DNA of 64,000 nt, taken from Gammaproteobacteria bacterium. GTDB taxonomy: Bacteria; Pseudomonadota; Gammaproteobacteria; HK1. Shown here one piece after another: positions 50,697-54,691 of this stretch. The stretch spans positions 1 to 64,000 of the forward strand of contig JAJFJV010000025.1 in the NCBI GenBank assembly GCA_021773635.1, in the 5' to 3' direction. The translations under genes were made by a program, and so were the position numbers. Numbering within the stretch: the stretch's first letter is position 1; every line of letters begins with the position of its first letter. The notes under the pieces were generated by a model. The model had not been told where the DNA came from. It saw nothing but the letters and a program-made list of their open reading frames with translations, and made no database searches.

Positions 50697-52652
50697 ATGA
50701 CCTCTATTTCAGAAACCACCGAACCACATCAAAGCCCTGTAACCGGCCTGTTGGTTGCCCTGCTGCCTGCCTCTGCCATCGGCGTTGCGCTTGGCTACAG
50801 AGGCGAGCATCCGGAATATTTTGCGGCTTCCCTGATGCTGTTGACGATCTGGCTGGCAGTTACCCTGCTGCGTGGTTATGCCACCGGGTTCGTTTTCCCC
50901 GTGAGCCCCGTAGTAACTACGTTGCTGCTGTTCTGCGGCTGGCTGGGTTTCAGCATGGTCTGGAGTCTGGCCCCCTACGCCAGTTTGTTCAGATTGTGGG
51001 AAGTGGCCAGTGTGCTGTTGGTATTCCTCATATGGAAACTGGCCCCCACGCAGCGGGGCTGGCGGACACTTTTTTTTCTTGTGCAGTGCCTTGGGGTTGC
51101 CCTCGCCCTTTATGCCCTGTACCAAAAATTTGGTCTCCAGCAGGATCCACGCTCATTTTTTTCCACCCGCAATTCGCATGCGGCCTTTCTTAATCTTGTC
51201 GCGTTGGCGGGGATGGGTGGATGTCTCCATAGCCTGGCCAGGGGACGCCTGGCCTGGTCGGCCAGCTGCTGGCATGGATTGGCCCTGTTTCTGCTGGCTT
51301 TTGCAGTTTTTTTGACCGGGAGTCGTGGCGCGACCCTCGCGCTCCTGATTGGCAGTGCGCTTGTACTTTGGACGAACCGCAAGGCGATACCGACCTACGC
51401 GTCGCTCGCGGTGTTGCTGTTGCTTGCGCTCGCCTATGGGGCGACTGAACTTAGCGGGGCGGGGGTGGTCGCGGACCGGCTACTCTCCCTGTCCGAGCCC
51501 GGCAGCGCCGGGATGAGCCGCTTTATTATCTGGGAGCCCGCATGGCGTATGTTCCTTGAGGCGCCATGGTTGGGTGTGGGGGCCGGAATCTTCTTTCTCG
51601 CCTATCCACCCTATCGCGAGGTTGCTGATACGAGTTCCGGTGCCCATGTCCATAATGATTATCTGGAACTGGCGATAGAGACTGGAATTCCGGGCGTGAC
51701 ACTTTTCTTGCTGTTCCTGCTGGCTGTGGGGCTGCTTTACCGCCGGGCCATGCGCCATGTTGAGCCTGGGCATGACTCACGGCTGGAGATGTCGGGCCTG
51801 TTCGCAGGGCTGGTGGCGACCGCCTTACACAGCTTTTTTACCTTCAATTTTTATATTCTGCCGGTCGTCATACTGGTCGGGCTGGTATTGGCCCGTCTGC
51901 ACCAGCTTGCCACCGGGGTGCTGCCCGTCACTAATTTCAAACTACAGCCGGCACGCCGGTTTACTCCTTTGGGTTACCGGCTGATCATCTTTTTTGGCAT
52001 GTTGTTGCCGTTTCTCTATCTATTGGGCACGGGCCTTAGCCAGCACCAGTGGGATCAGGCGCAGCTACGCTTGCAGAAAGGCGAAATTCAGGAAGCGCTT
52101 CAGGCCCTCAAGGGAATCCCGTTTTATGCCCCGGGTTCCGTTGTGGCCCGTAACGAAGAGGCGCGGATTTACACGGCCCTCCTGCATCGGGATCCGGACA
52201 TGCCCGCCGCCAGGCGTGCCGGGTTTTATCAGGAGGCGACGCGTTTGCTGGCCAGGGCGCAACGTGATAACCCGCTCTCCCCACAAACTTATTTTTATCA
52301 GGGACAGCTGGCACAAACGGTGCCTGAGCTTGCCGGGGATCGTTGGCGGGAGCAGGCAGGTGATGCCTACGCCGCGGCCCTGCGTACAGATCCCCGTTTT
52401 TATCTTGCGCGCATGGCCTATGCCCACCTGTTACTGGAGCAGAAAGAAGAGATCAGGGCGCTGGAGCTGCTTAAAGGGGGAAGCGAACATCCTTATAAGC
52501 CAAGGGTCCCGTTGTTGGGATACTACCAACTTCTGGTTGAACGGCTCAGAGCGGGTGGGGATATCAAGGGTGCCGAGAGGATCGAAGCCCGCCGCCAGGA
52601 AGTCATCGCTAAATTTGTGGCCGCAGGGCAGCCGAAGACGCTTGCAGACTAG
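50697..52652 (+). CDS. Wzy/O-antigen ligase-like membrane protein, candidate pilin O-glycosyltransferase
   Basis: 651 residues. About 11-12 membrane helices to residue ~440, including a periplasmic loop with PYREVADTSSGAHVHNDYLE and LAIETGIPGV (about 301-330), where the HxDY(x)E-type motif is shared by O-antigen ligases, Wzy polymerases and PglL/PilO oligosaccharyltransferases. The C-terminal ~200 residues are soluble helical, TPR-like (AQLRLQKGEIQEALQALKGI, YQEATRLLARAQRDNPLSP), as in PglL-type enzymes. Position straight after pilA suggests glycan transfer to pilin, but this is inference; no other glycan genes are in the window. Its stop overlaps suhB tail-to-tail. Confidence 0.85.
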   Translation: MTSISETTEPHQSPVTGLLVALLPASAIGVALGYRGEHPEYFAASLMLLTIWLAVTLLRGYATGFVFPVSPVVTTLLLFCGWLGFSMVWSLAPYASLFRLWEVASVLLVFLIWKLAPTQRGWRTLFFLVQCLGVALALYALYQKFGLQQDPRSFFSTRNSHAAFLNLVALAGMGGCLHSLARGRLAWSASCWHGLALFLLAFAVFLTGSRGATLALLIGSALVLWTNRKAIPTYASLAVLLLLALAYGATELSGAGVVADRLLSLSEPGSAGMSRFIIWEPAWRMFLEAPWLGVGAGIFFLAYPPYREVADTSSGAHVHNDYLELAIETGIPGVTLFLLFLLAVGLLYRRAMRHVEPGHDSRLEMSGLFAGLVATALHSFFTFNFYILPVVILVGLVLARLHQLATGVLPVTNFKLQPARRFTPLGYRLIIFFGMLLPFLYLLGTGLSQHQWDQAQLRLQKGEIQEALQALKGIPFYAPGSVVARNEEARIYTALLHRDPDMPAARRAGFYQEATRLLARAQRDNPLSPQTYFYQGQLAQTVPELAGDRWREQAGDAYAAALRTDPRFYLARMAYAHLLLEQKEEIRALELLKGGSEHPYKPRVPLLGYYQLLVERLRAGGDIKGAERIEARRQEVIAKFVAAGQPKTLAD

Positions 52653-53647
52653 GCGTCTGTCTTACTACTTTTCCAGACCGACGGAGCCGCCTCTTCGGGA
52701 GCAGGTTGAGTGCTTTTGCTTTTGGTATAGAGCTTGCTGCCCTGGGATGCTGCTGCAGGCACCTTTTTTTTGCGCGCTGTCCGAGCATTTTTTGCGGGCC
52801 GCTTTTTTGTGGCGGTTTTCCTGGGTGCGGGGCCGTTATCGGCGGTATTGTCTGCCACCGCGGTGTTGGCTAAATGCGGGTGGATGATACGTAGCAAGGC
52901 CTTTAGTACCTTCGGATTGCCGGCAACGATATCACCGGATTTCAGGTAATCGGTTCCACCATCGGGTTCCGTGACGATGCCGCCCGCCTCCTGAATGAGC
53001 AGTGCTCCTGCAGCCATGTCCCAGCTTTGCAGATCAAACTCCCAGAAGCCGTCAAGCCGTCCTGCGGCCACGTAGGCGAGATCCAGCGCCGCGGAGCCGG
53101 CCCGCCGTACGCCCTCGGTCTGCCCGAAGAGCTCCCGCAGGATGGCGAGGTAGGGTTCAATCCGTCCTAGTCGCCGGTAGGGAAAGCCGGTGCCCAGCAA
53201 GGCGTGTTCGAGGCGATTGCAGCGGGAGACCCGAATACGTTTGTCGTTGAGCAAGGCGCCACGTCCCCGGCTGGCGCTAAATATCTCCGCACGCAGCGGA
53301 TCGTAGATTACGCCGTGTTCAAGCCGACCATGGCGGGTGATGCCGATGGAAACCGAGAACTGCGGGAAGCCGTGGAGAAAATTGGTGGTGCCATCCAGGG
53401 GGTCAATAATCCAGGTGTATTCATCGTCGCCCTGCTGACCTCCTTCCTCTCCGAGGATGCCGTGTCCCGGGTAGATGCGCCGAATTGCCTGCACGATACT
53501 TTGCTCGGCCTGCCGATCGACCTCGCTGACCAGTTCGTTGAAGCTTTTGCGGGTTACGCTGAGAGCATCCAGACGATCCAGATGGGAGACGATGAGTTTG
53601 CCGGCGGCACGGGCGGCGGGAATGGCGATATTAAGCAGGGGTTCCAT
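52649..53647 (-). CDS. suhB: Inositol-1-monophosphatase SuhB with basic C-terminal extension
   Basis: 332 residues, longer than the usual ~265. Residues 1-260 are a complete IMPase: metal-binding Glu in ILGEEGG, DPLDGTTNFLHGFPQF (about 83-98), and WDMAAGALLIQEAGG (about 211-225). After residue ~262 comes a tail rich in Lys, Arg, Ala and Pro (RKTATKKRPAKNARTARKKK) resembling histone H1-like bacterial tails. SuhB also acts in rRNA antitermination with NusA/NusB factors, so a nucleic-acid-binding tail is plausible, but this is inference. Divergent from trmJ. Confidence 0.95.
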   Translation of the reverse strand: MEPLLNIAIPAARAAGKLIVSHLDRLDALSVTRKSFNELVSEVDRQAEQSIVQAIRRIYPGHGILGEEGGQQGDDEYTWIIDPLDGTTNFLHGFPQFSVSIGITRHGRLEHGVIYDPLRAEIFSASRGRGALLNDKRIRVSRCNRLEHALLGTGFPYRRLGRIEPYLAILRELFGQTEGVRRAGSAALDLAYVAAGRLDGFWEFDLQSWDMAAGALLIQEAGGIVTEPDGGTDYLKSGDIVAGNPKVLKALLRIIHPHLANTAVADNTADNGPAPRKTATKKRPAKNARTARKKKVPAAASQGSKLYTKSKSTQPAPEEAAPSVWKSSKTDA

Positions 53648-53721
53648 GGACGGCCCTTTTGGGGGAAGCGTGATGACGAGGTGCGCGATTGTAGTCGTTT
53701 CCCCGGTCCTGGTGAAAGGAT

Positions 53722-53885
53722 AAGCAGCCTGTCCGGCAATAGGAGAGCTACTGTGGAAAAGCCGATTCTGGCCAGATTTTTCCGTAATTTTCGTTGGATA
53801 GACTCATATTCTCCTCAAATGACCAAGAAATCTGACTCAAAACAGCATCTCCTCGCTACGGTTTCTATTGCCGGACAGGCTGCTT
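53722..53885. repeat. Perfect 21-bp inverted repeat pair in the suhB-trmJ intergenic region
   Basis: The arm at 53722-53742 (AAGCAGCC...GGCAATAG) recurs exactly as its reverse complement at 53865-53885. The 122-bp AT-richer centre holds a 19-codon minus-strand frame (53748-53807, with GAGGAG before its ATG). No target-site duplication is visible outside the arms. It could be a MITE-like element or a long-range RNA/DNA structure; neither is shown. Confidence 0.8.
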
Positions 53886-53944
53886 GCGATCTTTTCAGTG
53901 TGACGGCTTGCCGTTACGCTCTTACCCCGGACTACAGGTGAAGG

Positions 53945-54691
53945 ATGTTGGAAATGTCGACAGCGGATACACAGTGGCGCACCCGGCTACGGGTGGTGCT
54001 GGTGGGAACAACTCATCCGGGCAACATCGGTGCCGCGGCACGCGCCATGAAAACCATGGGCCTTGAGCGTCTCTATTTGGTTTCTCCCGAGCGCTTTCCC
54101 TGTGCCGAGGCTACTGCACGAGCGGCGGGTGCTGACGATCTGCTGGCGGCGGCGGTGTGTTGCGATAGCTTGGCCGAGGCAGTCTCTGATTGTGCCTGGG
54201 CGGTGGGTACCAGCGCACGCTCCCGCCACATTGCCTGGCCGACCCTCGACCCCGAAGGCTGCGCGCGGCAGGCAATTGCCGGTACCGCAGACGGGGAGGT
54301 GGCGCTGGTGTTTGGTCGCGAGCGTTCCGGGCTGAGTAATGCAGAGCTGGATCTGTGTCAGGCGGTGGTTCATATCCCCACTAACCCGGCCTTCAGCTCC
54401 CTGAACCTTGCGTCGGCGGTGCAGATTCTGGCCTATGAGCTATCCCGTGCCGGGGCCAGGGAGCCCGTGGCGCCCACTGTCGAGGAGCCCGCCGCCAGTG
54501 TGGAGGAGATGGAGCGTTTTTATGTCCACCTGGAGGAGGCCCTGCGGTCGATTGGTTATCTTGATCCCCGGGCTCCCAAGCTATTGATGCGCCGGATGCG
54601 TCGTTTATATGGCCGGGCCCGGCCACTGGAGAGCGAGGTGAGTATTTTGCGCGGGATACTGAGTGCCACCCTGGCGCAATCTTCCCGCTAG
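53945..54691 (+). CDS. trmJ: tRNA (cytidine/uridine-2'-O)-methyltransferase TrmJ
   Basis: 248 residues (ATG 53945, or ATG 53954 for MSTADTQWRTRL). SPOUT-fold SAM methyltransferase acting on position 32 of tRNA. Visible: VVLVGTTHPGNIGAAARAMKTMG (about 17-39), VFGRERSGLSNAEL (about 120-133), IPTNPAFSSLNLASAVQIL (about 141-159), the knot motifs. In many gammaproteobacteria trmJ is next to suhB, as here. Confidence 0.95.
   Translation: MLEMSTADTQWRTRLRVVLVGTTHPGNIGAAARAMKTMGLERLYLVSPERFPCAEATARAAGADDLLAAAVCCDSLAEAVSDCAWAVGTSARSRHIAWPTLDPEGCARQAIAGTADGEVALVFGRERSGLSNAELDLCQAVVHIPTNPAFSSLNLASAVQILAYELSRAGAREPVAPTVEEPAASVEEMERFYVHLEEALRSIGYLDPRAPKLLMRRMRRLYGRARPLESEVSILRGILSATLAQSSR

Follow-up and report, generated by a model that had tools for sequence, protein, structure and literature searches.

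The Correia/NEMIS elements of Neisseria are small non-coding repeats with terminal inverted repeats, TA ends, a stable stem-loop and many copies, according to the papers describing them (PMC2229807, PMC10969869), and they resemble in these traits the hairpin repeat family described here, one copy of which lies between suhB and trmJ in a gammaproteobacterial contig. However, they belong to another host class, and the same sources attribute to them an IHF site, cleavage by RNase III and promoters, whereas here the promoter scan covered the copy in the window (i.e. the whole 64,000-nucleotide stretch of DNA analysed) and found no promoter inside it; the two were compared by description, not by sequence. 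The ERIC/RU-1 (127 bp) and YPAL/RU-2 (168 bp) elements of enterobacteria are likewise small dispersed palindromic repeats, YPAL being near in size, but ERIC carries 7-bp terminal repeats, and YPAL has inverted repeats that are internal and is without TA ends (PMC2229807). MITEPsy1 of Pseudomonas syringae is 100 nt long, and its printed ends begin GGAAGGTC and GTATCCTC, which differ from GGAGYCTGTC in the present family; its authors suggest an origin from ISPsy2, whereas the transposase searches found no parent for the hairpin family. The REP/BIME sequences with their REP-associated (Y1) transposases are also dispersed extragenic palindromes and are reported to have gammaproteobacteria among their hosts (PMC2817692). 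Unlike these, none of 30 Y1 (PF01797) loci, taken from 106 matches in 18 genomes, holds a hairpin-family copy, and in these loci the repeats therefore do not flank the transposase gene as in REP/RAYT. The hairpin family is, furthermore, several times longer than a REP.

The inverted repeat between suhB and trmJ

The perfect inverted repeat of the window (Table 1) constitutes both ends of one copy of the hairpin repeat. On inspection of the sequence, its 21-base arms are exact reverse complements with 122 bp between them, and the pairing stops at 21. A chance origin is unlikely, as the sequence-only reading had held: no other exact inverted repeat that reaches 14 bp within a span of 400 bp or less is present in the 64-kb window, and among 20 first-order Markov sequences a 14-bp inverted repeat was found in two and none in 18. 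The same reading was right that the spacer is AT-richer than its surroundings (G+C 0.43, versus 0.60 in the suhB ORF, 0.64 in the trmJ ORF and 0.59 in the window) and that no direct target duplication is visible at this copy. When mismatches are allowed, the arms lengthen inward to 69 nt, with 71% complementarity and 26 nt between them, so that the entire 164 bp can fold as a single hairpin. The predicted RNA fold of positions 53715-53892 has -67.7 kcal/mol (z -6.6) on the + strand and -75.4 kcal/mol (z -8.2) on the - strand, relative to shuffled controls.

Table 1. Features of the suhB/trmJ intergenic region, in window coordinates
Feature	Position	Strand	Remark
suhB-like gene	52649..53647	-	reads away from element; NCBIfam
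sigma-70-like promoter match TTCACC-17-TACAAT	53688..53716	-	precedes suhB and lies immediately beyond the left arm; matches the consensus only
whole element, a full-length member of the 165-bp family of hairpin repeats	53722..53885	-	
left terminal arm AAGCAGCCTGTCCGGCAATAG	53722..53742	+	perfect inverted repeat of right arm
element interior, imperfectly paired stem and apical loop	53743..53864	- (family orientation)	
right terminal arm CTATTGCCGGACAGGCTGCTT	53865..53885	+	
trmJ-like gene	53945..54691	+	reads away from element; NCBIfam

The element fills 164 of the 297 bp separating the two divergent genes and leaves gaps of 74 and 59 bp. The suhB-like ORF is of the inositol-monophosphatase type, its best NCBIfam model giving 294.5 bits, under the cut-off of 332, and the trmJ-like ORF belongs to the TrmJ/YjtD family (TIGR00050, 222.5 bits, over the cut-off). 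The scan of the window copy gave no promoter or terminator match inside the element, and the only sigma-70-like promoter match that it found is that of suhB. The idea that a long stem places the promoters of both genes in a loop is unsupported, since a congener is without the element at this site and the promoter match lies outside it. A weak match to the family model (33.5 bits), restricted to the interior and without inverted-repeat arms, was observed directly upstream of a trmJ-like gene in the MAG of Methylophilaceae bacterium UBA7525 (L127:2823-2958), and is possibly a distant hairpin in the same trmJ-upstream intergenic region.

Members, structure and insertion sites of the family

The likeness to MITE termini recognised from the sequence was right in kind. 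Indeed, the 21-bp arms terminate a multi-copy element of about 165 bp, and a search of the own genome with the whole 164 bp gave matches over the interior at six other loci, with 77-79% identity. The arm was present in this genome, at up to three mismatches, only as its two copies in the window; the proposed search for the arm, in which a single copy would indicate a regulatory structure, would therefore have misled. A single-copy structure, as suggested by the unique arm, was rejected once the interior matched other loci. The arm is unique because the window copy does not share its arms with the rest of the family (the six copies first aligned have arms of type TAGGAGTCTGTCGGACTTAGG or near it); as the arms are divergent, the family is recognisable only by its interior and its structure. 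With another copy as the query, the own genome was found to contain, at E <= 0.1, nine further full-length copies as well as seven remnants (the weakest at E 0.016) and two copies interrupted by inserts (C32, C30). The window element is a full-length match to the family model R1, with 125.3 bits on the - strand and 64.2 bits on the + strand. Two traits of MITEs are present, namely (i) a short multi-copy element with terminal inverted repeats, in ten full-length copies in the own genome, and (ii) no transposase gene of its own, the element being too short for one.

The common arm types of the family are TAGGAGYCTGTCSGANTTAGG and TAGGAGCCTGTCCGAGAATAG, the latter being common in G093, a genome from another bacterial family, and the typical end is CTAG. 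In an alignment of 29 copies with 68 pairs, 92.4% of the cells are standard pairs (79.7% in shuffles), and changes on both sides are found in 45 of the 68 pairs (27.0 in shuffles). When the structure is slid by 1-3 columns the paired fraction drops to 36-48%, a comparison in which the unslid structure is favoured because it was derived from these same sequences. The score on the better strand is about double that on the opposite strand in most sources; for L053 the two scores are equal. The family interior is thus oriented and structurally conserved. Longer variants of about 213-216 bp recur in the genus (L022, L191, L200, L220-L224 and L261), and L019 has about 260 bp; the additional bases of L022 directly follow the apical stem on its 3' side, and a second insert is present in L019 as well.

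The ends were analysed in 122 copies, drawn mainly from full-length matches among those listed, so that degraded copies are under-represented, and without L362, which has no flanks. Perfect 21-bp arms are present in 32 of them, the outermost dinucleotide is TA on both sides in 74, and in 84 both sides have C (read inwards) as the next base outward; CTAG is therefore the commonest end. In at least six copies (L229, L239, L246, L251, L353 and L372, accepted by eye among 18 candidates given by a loose pattern) the flank runs straight into the arm of another copy and a single TA is shared, as expected if a copy had been inserted at the CTAG end of another. Furthermore, of the 100 elements in which the terminal TAG is usable, 41 have a reading frame, open for 80 codons or more, that ends exactly on this TAG. 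Counted by ends, the same test gives 45 of 163 on the terminal TAG, with 11 and 16 in the shifted frames; at comparison sites the exact stop occurs at 19 of 116 other CTAG and at 110 of 1213 other TAG. These counts leave out L035, L036, L055 and L056 (same places as other loci) as well as ends that are without a terminal TAG or have fewer than 80 codons of flank. They would be consistent with insertion into CTAG, stop codons being frequently used as the site. In P. syringae, a MITE is reported to insert at CTAG or YTAA and to give rise to a duplication (PMC3189936). In the present family C-TA is common at both ends and tandem copies share one TA; since TA is its own reverse complement, a target-site duplication would look the same as the symmetry of the arms.

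Distribution, transposase partners and the site in congeners

The family was found by blastn in 21 of 143 genomes, the own genome included, and a covariance model derived from 29 copies detected it at E <= 1e-4 in 87 of the 369 gammaproteobacterial genomes examined; up to seven candidates per genome were scored, so that copy numbers are lower bounds. Nearly all of the listed matches span model positions 1-165 and are 164-170 bp long. Among 72,556 plasmid records searched with four copies, one matched, with two of the four: a conjugative plasmid of Pseudomonas sp. MPC6, which carries a full-length copy (L290:3001-3165; NZ_CP034782.1, 140984-141148). No match was obtained in phages or in 20,395 E. 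coli records (one family copy searched in each), nor in viral contigs (one exact degenerate pattern). Rfam 15 gave no match at gathering score for the window element, the matches below that score being at chance level, and six other family loci were likewise without a gathering-score match. No description of the family was recognised in the literature, as far as titles and the beginnings of abstracts tell and with most subscription papers outside the scope; judged in the same way, none of the papers with arm-like strings concerns a bacterial repeat.

Three transposase families were searched for a partner. The IS630-type domain PF13358 had no match in six of eight genomes, and an IS630-type element of G137, tried as a partner, was rejected since its ends are unrelated to the family. 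For PF01609 (DDE_Tnp_1), six genomes were searched: there was none in the own genome and there were 16 matches in the five others, none of them between family ends. One of these 16 loci (L285, in G093) has a whole family copy beside a partial PF01609 match, and it is the only one of the 24 IS630-type and DDE_Tnp_1 loci to hold a family copy. Y1 genes were present in 18 of 18 genomes tested, a figure that says little because element-free genomes were not among them. In brief, no PF13358, PF01609 or Y1 gene lies between family ends in the loci examined (8, 6 and 18 genomes, respectively), and because no autonomous partner with shared ends was found among these three families the label used here is MITE-like only.

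A third trait of MITEs, insertion polymorphism between relatives, was observed at the suhB/trmJ site, which is filled in the own genome (G000) and in the congener G002, with the element at the same place and in the same orientation; in the congener G001 the element is absent and the intergenic region is short. The G002 copy has arms of type TAGGAGCCTGTCCGAGAATAG with AA/TT outer bases. The comparison with G001 gave no clean empty site or target duplication for the window copy; its flanks do not align cleanly base by base, so that neither a duplication nor a precise excision can be read from them. Two further shared insertions were found among the three congeners in a partial comparison, to which the own genome contributed 10 full and 8 partial copies, G001 22 copies and G002 20, with 300-bp flanks for the latter two. 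Shared sites may have been missed, as further copies exist in G001 (53 end matches) and G002 (89 end matches) and L257-L260 and L263-L265 did not enter the comparison.

Mirrored arm changes and their explanation

Between the window copy and the G002 copy, three of the 21 arm pairs differ, and all three are changed on both sides and are Watson-Crick in both copies. In the interior, 15 pairs are changed on one side and one on both, and three changes fall in unpaired columns. With the majority state among seven related copies taken as ancestral, 20 of the 26 changes are on the window lineage, five on that of G002 and one is unclear; all six arm changes are on the window lineage, where they form three mirrored pairs, with none unpaired, and include an adjacent double change at positions 15-16. 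The AA/TT outer bases, common to both species versus TA/TA in most of the family, make up a fourth mirrored difference. The arms of the window copy have thus kept matching each other by changing together. The probability that six independent changes in 42 arm sites form three complementary mirrored pairs is 9.4e-6, but this figure and the contrast between arms and interior are post hoc, because it was the perfection of its arms that drew attention to this copy. Other copies do not generally show mirroring. In 50 other copies of the genus (L001 and L219 excluded) there are 152 one-sided versus 36 mirrored cells, 26 of the 36 being at two polymorphic positions, and in G093 (28 of 31 copies, three being skipped in the arm analysis) there are 36 versus 11. 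The arms at the two further shared insertions carry no mirrored change; one position there is altered on both sides without matching.

The explanation that we favour, and consider reasonably probable, is that the window contains a copy, old and fixed, of a MITE-like hairpin repeat that is non-autonomous, and that the arms of this copy were matched by template-switch correction. The family would have been spread by transposition driven in trans by a separate enzyme, and the copy between suhB and trmJ would have been inserted before the window genome and G002 diverged, or else lost from G001. The hairpin would let replication switch template between the arms, and a mutation in one arm would be copied into the other; through such copying the ends would look freshly perfect even in an old copy. 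Template switching is reported to homogenise the arms of inverted repeats (PMC8604942) and to make multi-base compensatory changes (PMC8794818). It could give mirrored changes without any function, the adjacent double change included, and a role in the expression of suhB or trmJ would be unnecessary to explain the element.

The main rival is selection for the terminal stem: the copy would be domesticated, with a host function of the stem (in the processing or termination of transcripts, or as a DNA structure that acts on both genes) kept by compensatory selection. This is a serious candidate, although on balance an unlikely one. It would fit arms that are perfect in both species despite three mirrored differences, the imperfect arms and unmirrored changes of the two other shared copies, and the large share of the space between two divergent genes that the element takes, and it accounts better than template switching for other old copies that stay uncorrected. 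It would, however, call for a role that G001 does without, the interior stem has changed mostly on one side, partly with breakage of pairs, and the comparison extends to two filled species only. Two observations put template switching ahead of selection: the stem of the interior has not been preserved, and the scan gave no promoter or terminator match within the element. That the region contains a purely regulatory inverted repeat, unrelated to mobile DNA, is highly improbable: the uniqueness of the arm speaks for it, but the interior matches at other loci, the full-length score to the family model, the further full-length copies in the own genome and the absence from G001 all speak against.

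Template switching alone does not predict the excess of G-U over A-C on one strand. A reading that is compatible with the favoured one, but doubtful, is that a folded single strand (RNA or ssDNA) is what is maintained or moved, the hairpin being the substrate of an enzyme. This would account for the fixed length, seen in listed full-length matches that are almost all within 164-170 bp, for the conserved internal loops and for covariation across the class, and the pairs with changes on both sides agree with it, as does a G-U to A-C ratio of 119 to 31 in 36 dereplicated copies (sign test over pairs, p 0.0013). However, structure and alignment were fitted to the tested strand, which favours G-U; p is 0.038 for pairs that are at least 80% Watson-Crick and 0.09 for the arms alone, and the arm counts of G-U to A-C cells are inconsistent between sets (14 to 27 in the first 29 copies, 34 to 17 in 60). 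The strand test could mean that one strand is constrained, but it is suggestive and biased and is not relied on here. Neighbouring genes show no preference for reading into one end or the other (22 and 23), which also argues against a folded strand. The outer dinucleotides are altered alike on both sides in 7 of 122 copies, as this reading would have it, but on one side in 31 and differently on both in 10. A wider and quite improbable version is that a structured mobile hairpin, present in about a quarter of the sampled gammaproteobacterial species, is propagated as a folded single strand by a candidate enzyme and that pairing rather than sequence is inherited, even the terminal bases changing in mirrored pairs in resident copies.

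For the annotation of such elements, a unique arm sequence does not exclude a dispersed repeat, and a family of this spread with neither an Rfam match nor a description found represents an annotation gap. Its oriented hairpins are readily available for tests of palindrome evolution, and the two suhB/trmJ copies amount to a natural experiment, on a small scale, that sets selection against templated mutation as the process by which palindromes stay perfect.
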